A DNA stretch of 64,000 nucleotides from a halophilic archaeon (GTDB taxonomy: Archaea > Halobacteriota > Halobacteria > Halobacteriales > Haladaptataceae), in contig QNGA01000003.1 of assembly GCA_003298465.1 (NCBI GenBank), positions 1-64,000 on the forward strand, written 5' to 3'. Position numbers and translations under genes: made by a program. The notes under the pieces were generated by a model, which saw nothing but the letters and a program-made list of their open reading frames with translations, was not told the DNA's origin and searched no databases. Shown piece by piece: positions 3,851 to 20,799 of the stretch (its first letter is position 1; each line of letters opens with the position of its first letter).

Positions 3851-4246
3851 ATGAAGCGGAGGAAGTTGCTAAAAATAGGCGTTCCGACTACCGTTTTCGC
3901 CACGACCGGGCTGTACGTAACGTCGACCAAGTCCACGGACGTTCACGTACGGAACGACACGAACTCCGCGCGCTCCGTCTCTATCTCGATCCGACGGAAA
4001 GACGGTGGTGGAAAACAGTACACGGAAGAGTTCACCCTTCCGCCGAACGGAGACGTGACCGAGGAGAACGTGTTGAGCAACGGTGATTACCACCTCGCCA
4101 TCGAAAACGAGAGCACTCGTCTGGAGCGGGACGTCTCCAACGAGTTCTGTCGGGACCCGGCCATCTACGTCGCGATCTACGACGGCGGCGGAATCTCGCT
4201 CTCCTCCTCCGAATGTTGGCTCGACTACGTCCGCGCCGACCGATAG
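3851..4246 (+). CDS. Small putative Tat-exported protein of unknown function
   Basis: 131 residues. It begins MKRRKLLKIG followed by a hydrophobic stretch, a Tat-like signal. The mature part alternates short strands (VHVRNDTNSARSVSISI) in the manner of an immunoglobulin- or transthyretin-like fold. Two cysteines (FCRD and ECW) near the C-terminus could form a disulfide outside the cell. It follows the 412-residue secreted protein by 40 bases, with its own AT-rich element (attaact, near 3820) at leaderless spacing. Function unknown. The pair may form a secreted two-gene cassette. Confidence 0.6.
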   Translation: MKRRKLLKIGVPTTVFATTGLYVTSTKSTDVHVRNDTNSARSVSISIRRKDGGGKQYTEEFTLPPNGDVTEENVLSNGDYHLAIENESTRLERDVSNEFCRDPAIYVAIYDGGGISLSSSECWLDYVRADR

Positions 4247-10679: not shown

Positions 10680-13600
10680 ATGGTTGACCAAGACCCTGGC
10701 CAGAGAACGGACGCATCGACCGAAAACTCATCCGACCACGAACTGACGACGTCACGACGGTCGTTCCTCGCCGCGGGCGGCACGCTCGCTGCGGGGGCCT
10801 CGTTTCCGGGCGAGGACAGTTTCCCCGGCGGCCCGGCCGAAAACCGGGGCGACGTTCCCGACGAACCGGACGACGGTTGCGAAGTACGTCGCTTCGACGT
10901 GCACGCTATCGACGTCGACATCGTCTACAATCGCTACGGCCTCCACCAGCCGGTCGGCGTGATGTACGCCCTGGAGGAGGACCTCGACGAGATCCGCGAC
11001 GTATCGGGCAAGGTTCCCTGCGGGAACAACGTCGTCTTCGAGGACGACGAACGCGACGAGGGGTCCTTCTGCGACGACGTTCCAGAGGAGAAGCAGACGG
11101 ACTGCGACACGCGACTCATCCAGCCGCTCACGCTCCGCGCGAACAAGGGCGACATCATCGAGATCGTGTTCCACAACGACCTCGACCGCCACGCCTCGAT
11201 GCACCAGACGGCCCTGCCGTACGACGTCGAGGAGAGCGACGGGATGGAAGTGGGGCGGAACCCGGACACGACCGTGCCGCCCGGCGAGTGCATCACTTAC
11301 CGGTGGTACGCCAGCGAGTTCGGCGGGCACTTCTTCCTCGACGGGGCCAACCCGTCGTACTTCAGCAGCGAGGAAGACCCCCAGGAGGTAAACCTGCTTG
11401 CCCGCGGCTTGTTCGGCTCCGTCGTCGTTCACCCCAAGGGGACGACTTGGACCGACCCGTACACAGGCGAAGAAACCCAGGGCCGGATCCAGGCCGACAT
11501 CCATCATCCGAAAACTGTCTCCCAAGAGGCGAAGGACGTCGGCCTGGAACCCGGCACGAGCTACCGGCAGTTCCTCCTCCACTACCACACCCCGGAAGGA
11601 ATCAAGACTGCGGACGGGGGTGAACTCACCTACCCGAACAGCGACGAGAAGCAGCCGGTTCACGCCATTAACTATCGGGCCGACCCGACCGGGAATCGCA
11701 TTCCCGAACTGGACGTCGACGACCCCGATGTCGAAGAACTACGGGAGGCGTTCTACAGCTCGTGGCTCCACGGCGACCCCGGCGGCGGCGACAACGTCTA
11801 TCCGATGTACGTCGGCGACCCCGTGATGGCAATCCCGGTGGGGGCCTCGGTCGAGGAAAACCACGTCCACCACCTCCACGGTCACCGCTGGAAGGAGACG
11901 CCGCCGCTGGGAAGCTCGGACACCATCGACTCCCAGACCATCGGCCTCGGCGCGACGTACGAAGCCCCGCTCACCACCGCGTTCGGAACGCCCGACGCGG
12001 CCATCAACGACTTCACCTCGGTCCGCCCGGAGATGACGTTCGAAGAGGCGTTCGAGGTCGGCGCTGGCGGGGCACACGGAGCCACTGGCGACGTCCTGTT
12101 CCACTGCCACCTCTTCCCTCACTACGGCGAGGGGATGTGGGGAATGATGCGCGTCCTCGACAAGGAGCGCAAGGGACTGAAGAAGCTCCCTACCAACAAC
12201 CCGCCGCTCCCCAAGGATAGCAAGATTCCTGGTTACCCCGAGTTCATCCCCGGCGAGTTCGGCGAGGCGCCGCCGTTCCCGCCGTACGGGGCCGCCGGAC
12301 TCGACGACTTCCGCAACCCAGAGCCCGAAGAGGAGAAGGCGCTCACTCGAAAAGGCGAAATCAAACCCGGCGCGCCGTACTCGGACCCCTGCGATCCAGA
12401 TATCGAAGAGTATGAGCCGGCATTCGAGGGCGAGAAACGGGAGTACACCATCGTCGCCCTCCCGGCGGACATCGTCTACAACGACGCCGGGGACCACGAC
12501 CCCAACGGCATCGTCTACGTGCTCGAAGAGCACGCCGACCTGGTGCGAGAGGGGAAGATGAATCCCGAGCCGCTGGTCATCCGCGCGAACGTGGGCGATT
12601 GCGTCGAAATCACCCTCAAGAACGAAGTCACCGAGGAGAACATCGCCGCAATCCCCGGGGACAGATTCCCCGAGAACCCGCCCGGCGAGGACGTCGGCGC
12701 GGAGAACGTCCCCATCCAGGCGAGCGGGAAGTCCAACCACATCCACTTCGTCTCCTACGACCTGCTCGGGTCCGACTCGCTCGCGACCGGGTTCAACTAC
12801 CGACAGGACACCCAACCGGACGAACGGATGCACTACCGCTGGTACCCCGACGAGGAGGGGACCATCTTCTTCCACGACCACATCACCGGCATCGAGGACG
12901 TGATGCACGGCTCGTTCGCCTCCCTCGTGATCGAACCGCCGAACTCGAAGTGGCTCGACCCTTACAGCGGCGACCCCATCCGGAGCGGGACGCAGGCCAT
13001 CATCCAGGACCCTAACGGGACCGACTACCGGGAGTTCTGCGTCGCCTACCAGGACTTCGCACAACTCCTCGACCGCGACGGCGAACTCGTCAACCCGCAG
13101 AAAGAGCACAACGAGAATTCGGGGGTGATGGCGCTCAACTACCGCAACGAGCCGTACTACCACCGCGACGACGCGGACCCCGCCTACGTCCACTCCTCGT
13201 TCGTCCACGGCGACCCCGCGACCCCGGTGTTCGAGGCCTACGAGGACGACCCGGTTCGGTTCCGCCTCTGGCAGGCCGCCTGGGAGGAACAGCACAATTT
13301 CCAGATTCACGGCCGGCAGTTCCCGACCGTCGGGGTAGACCAGGAGGACGCCACCACGCAGATTATCGGCACGTCCGAAGCGTTCACGATGGACCTCGAC
13401 CCGGCGGCGGAGTTCGCCGACAACGGCGACGCCTTCGAGAAACTGGACGAGAATCCGGCCGGCCTTCCCATCACGGACTACATGTACGGGTCGGCGGTGG
13501 TCGACGACCTCTGGGACGGCATGTGGGGGCTGTACCGCGAAATCGGCAAGAAGGTGAAACACCTCGAACCACTGCCGGACCGCGGCACGCCGAAGGGCTC

Positions 13601-15380
13601 CATCTCTCAGAAGGAGTTGAAGAAGATGGGCCACCCCGCGCCGTGGAGCGACTTCGACTGGAGCGAGCGCGGCCAACTGGCCCGACTCCTCTACAGCGAC
13701 GACGACTGCAAGGCGTTCCCGGCGGACAAGGACGCCCGCCAGAACGACGCCATCGAGGGAAGCCCGCCGCCGACGTCGCCGACGCCGGGGGACCCGTGTC
13801 CCGACGACGCCGCTCTCGAACGGTTCGACGTCTCGGCGTTCGACACGGAGATCGAGTACAACGACCACGGCGACCACGACCCGTACGGAATCGCGTACGC
13901 GCTCGACGACGACGTCGCCGCCATCAGGAACGGCGACCTGCCGCTCACGCCCCTCACGTTGCGCGTGAACGAGGGTGACTGCATCGAGGTCACCCTGACC
14001 AACGACGTCGACTTCGACGCGATAAACGAGGACCACCCTCACCCCGAGATGCAGGGTCCGGACCAGGAGTGGGAGCGATCAGAACGCATCTCACTACATC
14101 CCACGCGGGTCCGGTACAACGTGCTCGCGTCGGACGGGACGACCGCCGGGTTCAACTGGGACCAAACGATCGGACCGGGCGAGAGCATCACCTACCGGTG
14201 GTACGCCGACGGCGACCTCGGGGCCGCCGTTCTCCACGACCACGCGGACGTCCGGAGCAACCGCCACCACGGCGCCTACGGCCGCCTCGTCATCGGGGAG
14301 GAGGGCGTCGAGTATCTCGACCCGACCACGGGCGAGCCCGCGCCGCAGGGGCGCAGCGATTCGGTGATAGCGAAAGTGCCCGACGGCGACGACCGACGCG
14401 ACTTCGCGCTCGCGTTCGCCGACGGCCAGTTCATAGTCAACGAGGACGACCCCGACGACTGCGTCGTCCCGCCGGGCGACGACTCCGACGAGTTCGACGC
14501 CGACGCCCCGTGTAACCAGCTGGGCGACCCGGAGGACCAGGGCTTTCCGGCCATCAATTACCGATCGGAGCCGTTCTCCCGGCGGTTCGACGACGACCCC
14601 GACCCCTGGGACGTGTACGACTCGGACACGCACGGCGACCCCGCGACGCCGGTTCCGCGCGCCGTGCTCGGCGATCCGATGGATATCCACGTCCACAAGA
14701 CGGCCGACAAGGCCGACGGACTCGTGTTCCACCTCGCGGCCCACCAGTGGAACCGCATGGAAGGCGTCGAGCAGTCCAAGGACGTCGGCGTCGACGACCG
14801 GACCAGCGTCACTAAGAGCGACCTGGTCAGGCCCAAGGACGGCGCCGGCGGCAAGGCCGAGAGCACCGGCGACTTCATCTACCAGGAGACCAGGGAGAAG
14901 TTCAAGCTCGAAGGTGGCGAGTGGGGGTTCCTCCGAGTCGGCGAGAATCAGGACGACTTCTGTGAACCCGTCCAGCCGCTTCCGGACCGCTGTCAGACGC
15001 CCGTCGAGGACCGCCCCGGTTGGCAGGTCGCGCGCGGCGACTTCACGGGCGACGGCACGCGAGACGTCCTCATCGGCGTGCCGTGGAGCGAACTCGAGAC
15101 CACCGAGGCGGGCGCGGCCTACCTGTTCACCGGACCGGTCGCCGACAGAGAGATAACGGACTTGACCGGGGCCGACGTCCGACTCGTCGGTACGCAGGCC
15201 GGCGAACGGGCGGGAGAGGCGGTCAGAATCGCCGACTACAACGGCGACGGCACGGCCGACATCGTCGTCGAGTCGCGGTCGACGCGGTACGTGATTCCGC
15301 GCTCCCAGCTCGTCCACGGGAAGAAGTCGCTCGCCAACACCGTGCGGCTCGCCGACGCGGCGGTCAAAGAGGAGCTATAG
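10680..15380 (+). CDS. Giant triple-repeat multicopper oxidase with C-terminal FG-GAP-like repeats
   Basis: 1566 residues, against about 500 for a usual laccase. A Tat signal (TSRRSFLAAGG, R26-R27) follows a 24-residue leader. Three homologous repeats of two cupredoxin folds start near residues 68, 587 and 1048, each opening with a xYNxxGxHxPxGxxYxL block. Complete copper motifs occur only in the C-half of repeat 1 and the N-half of repeat 2. The first carries H395/H398/H400 in HVHHLHGH, plus HCHLFPHYGEGM with C476, H477, H481 and M486. The second carries H687/H689 and H732/H734. The matching sites elsewhere are degenerate. The tail (about 1450-1540) has DFTGDGTRD and DYNGDGTAD, Ca-binding FG-GAP-type repeats. 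The protein is probably extracellular. The substrate is unknown; a metal oxidase is plausible. Confidence 0.85.
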   Translation: MVDQDPGQRTDASTENSSDHELTTSRRSFLAAGGTLAAGASFPGEDSFPGGPAENRGDVPDEPDDGCEVRRFDVHAIDVDIVYNRYGLHQPVGVMYALEEDLDEIRDVSGKVPCGNNVVFEDDERDEGSFCDDVPEEKQTDCDTRLIQPLTLRANKGDIIEIVFHNDLDRHASMHQTALPYDVEESDGMEVGRNPDTTVPPGECITYRWYASEFGGHFFLDGANPSYFSSEEDPQEVNLLARGLFGSVVVHPKGTTWTDPYTGEETQGRIQADIHHPKTVSQEAKDVGLEPGTSYRQFLLHYHTPEGIKTADGGELTYPNSDEKQPVHAINYRADPTGNRIPELDVDDPDVEELREAFYSSWLHGDPGGGDNVYPMYVGDPVMAIPVGASVEENHVHHLHGHRWKETPPLGSSDTIDSQTIGLGATYEAPLTTAFGTPDAAINDFTSVRPEMTFEEAFEVGAGGAHGATGDVLFHCHLFPHYGEGMWGMMRVLDKERKGLKKLPTNNPPLPKDSKIPGYPEFIPGEFGEAPPFPPYGAAGLDDFRNPEPEEEKALTRKGEIKPGAPYSDPCDPDIEEYEPAFEGEKREYTIVALPADIVYNDAGDHDPNGIVYVLEEHADLVREGKMNPEPLVIRANVGDCVEITLKNEVTEENIAAIPGDRFPENPPGEDVGAENVPIQASGKSNHIHFVSYDLLGSDSLATGFNYRQDTQPDERMHYRWYPDEEGTIFFHDHITGIEDVMHGSFASLVIEPPNSKWLDPYSGDPIRSGTQAIIQDPNGTDYREFCVAYQDFAQLLDRDGELVNPQKEHNENSGVMALNYRNEPYYHRDDADPAYVHSSFVHGDPATPVFEAYEDDPVRFRLWQAAWEEQHNFQIHGRQFPTVGVDQEDATTQIIGTSEAFTMDLDPAAEFADNGDAFEKLDENPAGLPITDYMYGSAVVDDLWDGMWGLYREIGKKVKHLEPLPDRGTPKGSISQKELKKMGHPAPWSDFDWSERGQLARLLYSDDDCKAFPADKDARQNDAIEGSPPPTSPTPGDPCPDDAALERFDVSAFDTEIEYNDHGDHDPYGIAYALDDDVAAIRNGDLPLTPLTLRVNEGDCIEVTLTNDVDFDAINEDHPHPEMQGPDQEWERSERISLHPTRVRYNVLASDGTTAGFNWDQTIGPGESITYRWYADGDLGAAVLHDHADVRSNRHHGAYGRLVIGEEGVEYLDPTTGEPAPQGRSDSVIAKVPDGDDRRDFALAFADGQFIVNEDDPDDCVVPPGDDSDEFDADAPCNQLGDPEDQGFPAINYRSEPFSRRFDDDPDPWDVYDSDTHGDPATPVPRAVLGDPMDIHVHKTADKADGLVFHLAAHQWNRMEGVEQSKDVGVDDRTSVTKSDLVRPKDGAGGKAESTGDFIYQETREKFKLEGGEWGFLRVGENQDDFCEPVQPLPDRCQTPVEDRPGWQVARGDFTGDGTRDVLIGVPWSELETTEAGAAYLFTGPVADREITDLTGADVRLVGTQAGERAGEAVRIADYNGDGTADIVVESRSTRYVIPRSQLVHGKKSLANTVRLADAAVKEEL

Positions 15381-18166: not shown

Positions 18167-18365
18167 GACTCGGCGTTCGACGGCGAGCGGTTTCAGTCTG
18201 CGGGTAGGGTCCGGTCCGCCGGTCGGCGCGCGCCGGAGTCGGTGGGACGAATCCGCCGTCGGTGTCGTCTCCCCGACCTGTCCGAGCGTGGCCGCGGTGG
18301 CGACCCCACCCGAGGCGTTGCGCTCCCATCGGCAGGTTTAGAACCGTCGTGGACAAGTGGACGAT

Positions 18366-19649
18366 ATGAACCGTCCCCGCGTCCGATACCTCGCCGCGGC
18401 GTTCGTCGTCCTCGCCGCGGTCCTCGGAATCCAGGCAGCGACGGCCGACCAGGAGGTGAAGGCCGAGACGGTCGCGGAGGGACCGTACGAGGGCCACACG
18501 CTCATCAGCGTCCAGAGCTACAAGCTGAACGGTCGGCTCGTCGTGGTGAACACCTCGACGAACGACGTCGTCTGGGAGTACGACCCGCCGAACTCCCGGG
18601 TGTTCGACGCCGAACAGCTCGAAAACGGGAACGTACTCGTCGCGGTGACGACGAAGCTCCCGCCCTCGAAGTGCCCCGAGGAGCACCTCCAGGTCGCCTC
18701 GAAGCAGTGCATCCAGGCGAAGGTGCTCGAACTCGACTACCCGAGCAAGGAGGTCGTCTGGAACTACTCGTGGTACGACGAGTACATCACCCACCACGAG
18801 GTCCACGACGTCGACCGCCTGTCGAACGGCGAGACCGCCATCGTCGACATGGGCAACGACCGCGCGTTCACCGTGAACCAGCAGGGCGAGATAACGTGGG
18901 AGTGGCAGGCCGAGAACCACCTCGCCGAGGGCACCGAGTTCCACCGGAAGTACGGCGGTCCGCCGGACCCCGGCGGCGAGAAGGACTGGACCCACATGAA
19001 CGACATCGACAAGCTGGAGAACGGCAACTTCCAGCTATCGGTCCGGAACTTCGACGTGGTCATCGAGGTGAGCCCGAAGACGAACGAGATAGTCGACGTG
19101 GTCGGCCGACCGGGCAACCACACCGTGATGAACGAGCAGCACAACCCCGACCGCCTCGAGGGGTCGAACCACCTGCTCGTCGCCGACAGCCAGAACGACC
19201 GCGTGGTCGAGTTGAACGCCACGACGGGCGACGTCGTCTGGAAGTACGGCGGCAAGAGCCTGCTCCACTGGCCGCGGGACGCCGACCGCCTGCCGAACGG
19301 CAACACGCTCATCACGGACACGTTCAACAACCGGGTCGTCGAGATAAATCCCGACGGCGAGGTCGTCTGGCGCTACGAGGGCGTGATGATGCCCTACTCG
19401 GCAGACCGGATGACGGTGCCCGAGAACTCCACCGACACGGTGCCGGCGACGCAGTTCGACAGTCACTTCCGCGACCCGAACGCCGCGACGGGCATGCTCC
19501 AGCAGGCAGAGGCGTACGCGTCGTTCGTCTTCCCGGGGTGGGTCCGCCTGCCAGAACTCGTGACGATGGCCGCCATGGTCGTGGTGGCCCTCTGGCTGCT
19601 CGGCGAACTCGCGGTCGGCGCGTACCGCGACTACGCGAGCGAGGAGTAG
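18366..19649 (+). CDS. Arylsulfotransferase-family (ASST) beta-propeller protein
   Basis: 427 residues from ATG 18366, with TATA-like gtttagaa about 27 bases upstream. The N-terminal hydrophobic segment (about 8-25) is a signal or anchor. Residues about 45-370 repeat blades with motifs such as GDVVWKYG, RLPNGNTLITDTFNNRVVEI and DGEVVWRYEG, typical of arylsulfotransferase/PQQ-like propellers. A second membrane segment (VTMAAMVVVALWLLG) near residue 400 anchors the C-terminus. Whether it transfers sulfate is unknown. Many archaeal members lack a proven activity. Confidence 0.75.
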   Translation: MNRPRVRYLAAAFVVLAAVLGIQAATADQEVKAETVAEGPYEGHTLISVQSYKLNGRLVVVNTSTNDVVWEYDPPNSRVFDAEQLENGNVLVAVTTKLPPSKCPEEHLQVASKQCIQAKVLELDYPSKEVVWNYSWYDEYITHHEVHDVDRLSNGETAIVDMGNDRAFTVNQQGEITWEWQAENHLAEGTEFHRKYGGPPDPGGEKDWTHMNDIDKLENGNFQLSVRNFDVVIEVSPKTNEIVDVVGRPGNHTVMNEQHNPDRLEGSNHLLVADSQNDRVVELNATTGDVVWKYGGKSLLHWPRDADRLPNGNTLITDTFNNRVVEINPDGEVVWRYEGVMMPYSADRMTVPENSTDTVPATQFDSHFRDPNAATGMLQQAEAYASFVFPGWVRLPELVTMAAMVVVALWLLGELAVGAYRDYASEE

Positions 19650-19716: not shown

Positions 19717-20799
19717 TCACGCGGGCTGGAGCCTGAGTACGCGGTCGTCCTGCGGTGCCGGCGGCCCGCCGCGTCCGTCCTGGTTGCTGGTCGTCACGTA
19801 GAGGTGCCCCTCCGGACCGGTGAACGCCGTCCGGAGGCGACCGTAGTCGCCCACCAGCAGGCGCTCCTGCTCGACGACGCTCCGCCCGTCGAGGCCGACC
19901 CGGTGGAGGTGGGTGCCCGCGAGCGCGCCGAAGAAGAGGTCGCCCTGCCACTCCTCGATGGGGCCGCGGTAGATGGTCGCGCTGGCCGGGGCGATGGTCG
20001 GCGTGTACGTCGCGATGGGGTCGACGTAGTCGTCGCCCTCCACGCCCATCTCCCGCGGCCAGCCGTAGTTGCCGCCGACTTCGAGGACGTTGACCTCGTC
20101 GTCGTGGTCCGGCCCGTGCTCGGTCTCGAACAGCGTACCGTCCCGGAACGTCAGCCCCTGCGGATTGCGGTGGCCGTAGGTGAACACCGCGTTCCCGAAG
20201 GGGTTGTCCGGATGCGGCGCTCCGTCGAGCGTGAGTCGGAGGACCTTCCCCGCGAGCGACGACTTCTTCTGGGCGAGGTCGCCGTCGCCCGCGTCGCCGG
20301 TCGTCACGTACAGCGCGTCGCCGTCGACGGCGAGCCGGCCGCCGTCGTGGATCGACGCGCCGGGAATCCCGTCTAGGACCACGCCGTCCGGCGCGAACCC
20401 GTCGTCCACTCGGTGACTGACGACCCGATTGCGCAGTCCGTCGGCGGCCTCGTACGTCTGGTAGGTGAACGCGACGTCCGGGTCCTCGGGATGGAAGACG
20501 AGGCCGAGCAGTCCGCCCTCGCCGCGGCTGGCGACGGTGTCGGTGAAGTCCGCGAGCACCTCGGTGGTGTTCTGTCGGATGCGCTGGACGCGCCCCGGAC
20601 GCTCGGTGAGATAGAGGTCGTCGTCGGGGCCGAACGCCGCCCCCCAGGGGACCTCCAGGTGCATGGCGACCGTCTTGACGCGCACCCCCGGTCCCCGCTC
20701 CATCGTCGTGGTCTTCGTCGAACTGCCGGACGTCTCGACGCAACCTGTGAGTCCCGCGAGTCCGAGCGACAGCGACCGGAGGTACGTGCGGCGTCGCAT
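19717..20799 (-). CDS. PQQ-dependent sugar dehydrogenase-like lipoprotein
   Basis: 360 residues. The N-terminus has an arginine-rich Tat-like start (MRRRTYLRSLSLG) and a lipobox (LTGC, Cys at about 20), so it is probably a surface lipoprotein. The propeller matches soluble glucose dehydrogenase-type enzymes: VPWGAAFGPD, GEGGLLGLVFHP, YGHRNPQGLTF, EHGPDHDDEVN and GGNYGWP. The conserved His of the SRGEGG region and the GHRNPQG motif are family hallmarks. It would oxidise sugars outside the cell with a quinone cofactor. It is convergent with the ASST gene. Confidence 0.85.
   Translation of the reverse strand: MRRRTYLRSLSLGLAGLTGCVETSGSSTKTTTMERGPGVRVKTVAMHLEVPWGAAFGPDDDLYLTERPGRVQRIRQNTTEVLADFTDTVASRGEGGLLGLVFHPEDPDVAFTYQTYEAADGLRNRVVSHRVDDGFAPDGVVLDGIPGASIHDGGRLAVDGDALYVTTGDAGDGDLAQKKSSLAGKVLRLTLDGAPHPDNPFGNAVFTYGHRNPQGLTFRDGTLFETEHGPDHDDEVNVLEVGGNYGWPREMGVEGDDYVDPIATYTPTIAPASATIYRGPIEEWQGDLFFGALAGTHLHRVGLDGRSVVEQERLLVGDYGRLRTAFTGPEGHLYVTTSNQDGRGGPPAPQDDRVLRLQPA

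Follow-up and report, generated by a model that had tools for sequence, protein, structure and literature searches.

A putative MnxG-type six-domain multicopper oxidase of haloarchaea, with one predicted copper assembly across domains 2 and 3 and a conserved acidic cluster in domain 4

If a single polypeptide contains three copies of a two-domain oxidase unit, which of its three possible copper assemblies does it keep, and what would it oxidise? The question is raised by a 1566-residue protein encoded in a 64,000-nucleotide stretch of DNA from a halophilic archaeon of the Haladaptataceae (GenBank assembly GCA_003298465.1, contig QNGA01000003.1, positions 1 to 64,000; this whole stretch is referred to below as the window). 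The protein amounts to a two-domain laccase trimer fused into one chain, with one of the three assemblies left, and its best overall explanation, which has good probability, is a secreted six-domain multicopper oxidase of the MnxG type. The predicted architecture and ligand assignment, based on alignments and structural models, are close to certain. The parts of the gene are as follows, with residue numbers referring to the protein and all domain boundaries approximate.

10680..15380, plus strand: predicted six-domain MnxG-type multicopper oxidase, 1566 amino acids (open reading frame (ORF) call, Pfam, alignment to the solved MnxG, PDB 9bxa)
10752..10811, plus strand: putative Tat-type (twin-arginine) signal, residues 25-44, SRRSFLAAGG... 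(sequence reading; RRSFL, 26-30, by motif script)
10875..11453, plus strand: domain 1, about 66-258, N-terminal half of repeat 1, trinuclear half lost, FFLDG at 218-222
11454..12179, plus strand: domain 2, about 259-500, C-terminal half of repeat 1, predicted type 1 site and four trinuclear His
11862..11879, plus strand: HxxHxH, with H395 (type 1) and H398 and H400 (trinuclear) (sequence, family alignments)
12102..12137, plus strand: HCHxxxHxxxxM, with H475 and H477 (trinuclear) and C476, H481 and M486 (type 1) (sequence, family alignments)
12432..12959, plus strand: domain 3, about 585-760, N-terminal half of repeat 2, remaining four trinuclear His
12738..12746, plus strand: HIH 687-689, trinuclear His pair (sequence, family alignments)
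12873..12881, plus strand: HDH 732-734, trinuclear His pair (sequence, family alignments)
12960..13565, plus strand: domain 4, about 761-962, C-terminal half of repeat 2, remodelled type 1 site
13284..13310, plus strand: EEQHNFQIH 869-877 in domain 4, E869 and H872 invariant in 218/218 family members
13503..13508, plus strand: D942-D943 in domain 4, D943 at the place of the type 1 His and invariant in 218/218
13806..14354, plus strand: domain 5, about 1043-1225, with HDH 1186-1188
14355..14954, plus strand: domain 6, about 1226-1425, without the type 1 ligand set
15015..15290, plus strand: two FG-GAP repeats, about 1446-1537, C-terminal to the oxidase core (PF01839, E 2.2e-11, two stretches)

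The three internal repeats described in the initial annotation are real. In pairwise alignments, repeats 1 and 2 share 27% identity (E 4e-33) and repeats 2 and 3 share 35% (E 9e-48), and Pfam places Cu-oxidase_3 on three stretches and Cu-oxidase_2 on one. Three tandem two-domain repeats are a feature of six-domain MnxG-like oxidases in the sense of PMC3600357. The motifs that had been quoted were also found at the residues given for them, namely H395/H398/H400, H475-C476-H477, H481, M486, FFLDG (218-222), HIH (687-689), HDH (732-734), HNFQIH (872-877), GSA (937-939) and a further HDH (1186-1188). Domain 2 would supply eight copper ligands (H395, H398, H400, H475, C476, H477, H481 and M486) and domain 3 the other four (H687, H689, H732 and H734). 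As in MnxG, the assigned type 1 ligands (H395, C476, H481 and M486) are confined to domain 2, and both the residues and model superposition place the predicted trinuclear site across domains 2 and 3. At the positions of the type 1 Cys and His, domain 4 has S938 and D943 and domain 6 has E1403 and F1408; in a three-repeat alignment of 110 family members, the domain 6 equivalents of the lost site are variable, or basic or aromatic. Three-domain laccases have the motif order HxH, HxH, then HxxHxH and HCH. The order here is instead HxxHxH, HCH, then HIH and HDH.

Family alignments indicate that this ligand pattern is far from chance. Two family sets were compiled from the best 120 of 1240 matches in a first search and the best 120 of 1351 in a second search with a Microvirga query, both of which scored only the candidates with the most words in common. 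Removal of 10 and 12 proteins, respectively, for low core coverage left 110 near-full members (window protein included) and 108 near-full members, without any sequence common to both sets. All 12 ligands are identical wherever the residue is present in the best 120 of the first search (window protein included), and they are invariant in 110/110 and again in 108/108 near-full members (218/218 combined), whereas only 79 of 1360 core columns are invariant overall in the 110-member set. These counts bear out the proposal that one type 1 site and eight trinuclear His are left, contributed by domains 2 and 3. Repeat 3 had also been described as keeping an N-terminal HDH; the motif is indeed present at 1186-1188 in domain 5, but it is complete in only 3/110 rows (the window protein and its two closest relatives) and is therefore a local feature, not a conserved relic. 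A second live site between domains 4 and 5 using this HDH is ruled out, given this count and the loss of HCH from domain 4. Separately, a relative on a Rubrobacter marinus plasmid (L067) has F, not M, at the type 1 axial position, and is annotated as two adjacent genes, possibly a split gene.

The closest solved relative is MnxG of the Bacillus sp. PL-12 Mnx complex (9bxa), which aligns with the window protein at E 3e-187 and has the same motifs in the same domains, confirming the permuted motif order that had been likened to that of MnxG. The exception is H340 of Bacillus MnxG, the equivalent of H481, which is Ala in 9bxa; that structure is a type 1 mutant (H340A), as supported by its title and by the alignment. 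Predicted models of both halves of the window protein, for which 74 of the 119 other proteins from the first family search served as input, superpose on 9bxa, with the model of domains 1 to 4 matching at 2.8 Å over 782 residues. This superposition was used in place of ligand distances, and a wide separation of the domain 2 and domain 3 ligands, the outcome by which the initial annotation would have been refuted, would need a domain arrangement unlike that of 9bxa.

Neither the arrangement nor its presence in haloarchaea is new, since Vasin, Klotchenko and Puchkova (2013; PMC3600357) described the domain 2/3 trinuclear site in bacterial proteins and extended it to archaea. Halorubrum lacusprofundi and Haloterrigena turkmenica are represented among the proteins that they analysed, and the site of chordate proteins is assigned there to domains 1 and 6. 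The window protein is a further member of this published six-domain MnxG-like group, and the main additions here are a conserved cluster in domain 4 and the lack of detectable MnxE and MnxF, the accessory subunits.

In the three-repeat alignment, the domain 4 equivalents of the type 1 residues H395 and H481 are H872 and D943, each in 110/110 members, and the equivalent of the type 1 Cys is Ser or other residues. E869, three residues ahead of H872, is present in 110/110, E870 is Glu in 100/110, and an acidic residue (D or E) stands at 942 in 94/110. In the second set, E869, E870, H872 and D943 are each found in 108/108, as is an acidic residue (D or E) at 942. Similarly, five further proteins from a plasmid collection all keep E869, E870 and H872, and four of the five keep D943 (Gly in Indioceanicola). 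Because invariant Glu, His and Asp remain, the domain 4 site is not freely decaying. By analogy, such a residue set would suit the binding of Mn(II) or Fe(II); alternatively, the conservation of E869, H872 and D943 may reflect a purely structural role.

Ceruloplasmin offers the comparison. Its residues E272 and E971 each stand four positions ahead of the first type 1 His in the domain that carries them. According to PMC3738974, its iron sites are built from one His, one Asp and two Glu, and the ligands include E272 (domain 6 site, supplied by domain 2) and E971 (domain 4 site). By threefold symmetry, E869 would act at the type 1 copper in domain 2. A more far-reaching reading is a family-wide conversion of the domain 4 type 1 site to a hard-metal site, in which the Cys became a non-ligand, one His became D943, H872 was kept, and E869 was added together with the mostly acidic E870 and D/E942. 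E869 would then be the counterpart of ceruloplasmin E272/E971, a Glu supplied by one domain to the substrate site of the domain next to it, the site would hold or relay Mn(II) beside the domain 2 type 1 copper, and the protein would be a haloarchaeal single-subunit Mn oxidase without the MnxE/MnxF cap. As a whole this reading is tentative and rather unlikely to hold in every part; its component that the cluster lies in the substrate path is plausible, somewhat short of an even prospect. The cluster may already be described in the paper on 9bxa.

PMC5622069 states that Bacillus Mnx is active only with mnxEFG. On a Priestia plasmid (L056), two small ORFs directly before the mnxG-like gene are similar to the 9bxa subunits MnxE (E 2.7e-27) and MnxF (E 1.8e-17). 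When these two proteins were used in tblastn searches at E 0.01, no match was found in the 64-kb window or in 21 haloarchaeal loci over 12 kb, among which L055 and L058 represent a single place. A 20-row MnxE profile at E 1 matched 0/28 haloarchaeal genomes (27 carriers and G108, which has a core fragment) and the control plasmid at E 1e-52; single-sequence searches of the 28 genomes gave, control apart, best E values of 0.09 for MnxE and 0.09 for MnxF. The MnxF search is based on one sequence, which a diverged MnxF could escape, and for the window's own genome the MnxE and MnxF searches cover 64 kb only. Against about 5.8 billion proteins, MnxE has 151 relatives, and the organism names among the best 120 of them are of genera that we take to be Bacillota (Firmicutes), Desulfitobacterium included. 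Since Bacillus Mnx needs mnxEFG and the two subunits were not found, the archaeal enzyme would act alone or with other partners; judged from these searches, it very probably works without an MnxE/F cap.

How might such an enzyme work? From its twin-arginine signal, the protein would be exported by Tat, and is thus probably secreted, and would then be loaded with copper. In keeping with multicopper oxidase chemistry, a metal ion, Mn(II) foremost and Fe(II) or Cu(I) next, would donate electrons singly to the domain 2 type 1 copper (H395, C476, H481 and M486); from there, H475-C476-H477 would conduct the electrons to the trinuclear cluster between domains 2 and 3, the site of O2 reduction to water. 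The dead domain 4 copper site would be retained along the route of the substrate, where E869/E870, H872 and D942/D943 would bind the metal or pass it on. By analogy, a function as a metal oxidase is likely, and whether Mn(II) would be its main substrate is evenly balanced: identity of the closest solved relative, a Mn oxidase, speaks for Mn(II), and the failure to find MnxE/F leaves more room for Fe(II) or Cu(I).

Several points weigh against Mn(II) oxidation assisted by the domain 4 cluster. Transfer of the Mn(II) substrate is weakened because Bacillus MnxG needs MnxE and MnxF, which were not found here. The ceruloplasmin iron ligand D1025, just ahead of the type 1 His, corresponds to P480, which is invariant in 218/218, and the spatial arrangement around domain 4 is deduced from the pseudo-threefold ring. 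Additionally, the window protein scores 170.6 bits (E 2.5e-50) against NF041487, the NCBIfam model of Mn-oxidising MnxG, below the cut-off of 3100; however, five other members (four bacterial, one haloarchaeal) also fail, with 204-347 bits, all above the window protein, and the model thus does not decide on the Mn substrate. No metal-handling gene was recognised in the ten neighbouring ORFs scanned. We are not aware of a measured activity, metal content or phenotype of any haloarchaeal member, and literature searches on Mn oxidation or MnxG in haloarchaea showed no such experiment by title or start of abstract. The introduction of PMC5622069 names bacteria and fungi as Mn(II) oxidisers.

The same architecture could instead belong to an enzyme that oxidises Fe(II) or Cu(I) and serves in iron or copper tolerance, which is a real though minority prospect. 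Ceruloplasmin, a ferroxidase for which PMC3738974 also reports cuprous oxidase activity, is a six-domain relative by fold; MnxE/F, required for Mnx activity, were not found in the searched haloarchaeal loci and genomes; and the Glu, His and Asp of domain 4 suit Fe(II) equally with Mn(II). Against this, the Mn oxidase MnxG is the nearest solved relative in both sequence and fold, and the Asp ahead of the ceruloplasmin type 1 His is Pro in all 218 members. A laccase-like oxidase of organic or phenolic compounds is improbable, given that the six-domain relatives of known substrate considered (MnxG and ceruloplasmin) oxidise metals, and that the domain 4 cluster is acid-rich.

A decayed, inactive relic that lost its copper ligands piecemeal would account for the disappearance of two of the three possible copper sites, but it is very improbable in view of the 12 remaining ligands, invariant in 218/218, and of the genome survey, which shows no internal stop for any of the matches listed. 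The ceruloplasmin-type enzyme, with its cluster between domains 1 and 6, is the least credible alternative: although the six-domain pseudo-threefold fold is common to both, FFLDG in domain 1, the lack of HCH in domain 6 and the trinuclear His in domains 2 and 3 refute it by sequence. The contrast originally drawn with ceruloplasmin on this point agrees with PMC3600357. If the preferred explanation, a secreted MnxG-type oxidase, is correct, then an archaeal enzyme that shares the active-site plan of MnxG and lacks detectable accessory subunits would offer a simpler system for studying how a multicopper oxidase converts Mn(II) to Mn(IV), and would bear on whether hypersaline archaea share in Mn cycling. 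The residues conserved in domain 4 are also a small set of targets for mutagenesis of MnxG.

Among 391 genomes from the class that includes Haladaptatus litoreus (G002), 71 have some match to the protein, many to the FG-GAP tail only; among the matches listed, oxidase-core matches are long in 25 genomes and a fragment in one (G108). Two separate core loci occur in at least 5 of the 25 (G302, G372, G378, G138 and G220), and copy numbers are lower bounds, with at most two candidates scored per genome. Close relatives include those of Haladaptatus litoreus (83%) and Halogranum amylolyticum (79%). A FastTree tree of 114 rows groups the haloarchaeal-named rows together, adjoining a small group with Neobacillus and Bacillus sp. 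rows (P0076, P0078, P0080, P0081 and P0083) and separate from the MnxG rows of Bacillus/Paenibacillus. Its outgroups are long branches that are not on one side, and it is used only for this placement. The Neobacillus and Bacillus sp. SCS-153A group joins the haloarchaeal rows, not Bacillus MnxG, and gene transfer is possible. A Cys pair in domain 6 (1261/1278), possibly a clade-specific disulfide, is present in 67/69 haloarchaeal-side rows (P0001-P0075 by rank, with organism names on part only) and in 2/41 others (P0082 and P0084, which, like P0077, fall with the haloarchaeal side in the tree). PF01839 is found in some, not all, haloarchaeal homologues. A usual beta-propeller has seven blades, and two FG-GAP repeats are too few to close one.

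A scan of ten ORFs around the gene identified a DUF7344 protein, a SHOCT protein, FxsA and a HAD hydrolase. Downstream are an arylsulfotransferase/PQQ-repeat-like protein (18357-19646) and a glucose/sorbosone dehydrogenase-like protein (19720-20799). An all-against-all comparison covered the flanking ORFs of at least 60 amino acids in 19 haloarchaeal loci and in a 22-kb slice of the window. At thresholds of E 1e-8 and 60 bits, each ORF family is shared by at most 3/20 loci, and no operon partner is therefore proposed. Some haloarchaeal loci encode CHRD-domain proteins or similar ORFs no more than several kb from the oxidase gene (L057 10827-11483, L058 2099-2905, L002 3179-3832 and L046 about 3958-4197); none was present among the ten window neighbours scanned.

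Among known systems, MnxG of the Mnx complex (9bxa) resembles the window protein in its six domains, in type 1 ligands in domain 2 and trinuclear His in domains 2 and 3, in fold and, by alignment, in the EE-x-H motif of domain 4. In contrast to MnxG, the window protein has a Tat-type signal, an FG-GAP tail (1566 versus 1227 amino acids) and the C1261/C1278 pair in domain 6, and MnxE/MnxF were not found with it. Pseudomonas-type MnxG, to which NF041487 would correspond judging from the model length of 1894, belongs to the same superfamily. Hlac_1576 (Halorubrum lacusprofundi, 1525 amino acids) and Htur_3146 (Haloterrigena turkmenica, 1476 amino acids), likened here by description only, belong to the PMC3600357 set, for which a domain 2 type 1 site and a trinuclear site shared by domains 2 and 3 are reported. 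Ceruloplasmin and hephaestin, themselves metal oxidases, share the six-domain pseudo-threefold fold, but have their cluster between domains 1 and 6 and type 1 sites in domains 2, 4 and 6 (PMC3600357). In the two-domain laccases (Streptomyces SLAC, Ssl1), one subunit corresponds to about one repeat of the window protein. These laccases are homotrimers with three identical clusters, whereas the window protein is one chain with one predicted cluster.
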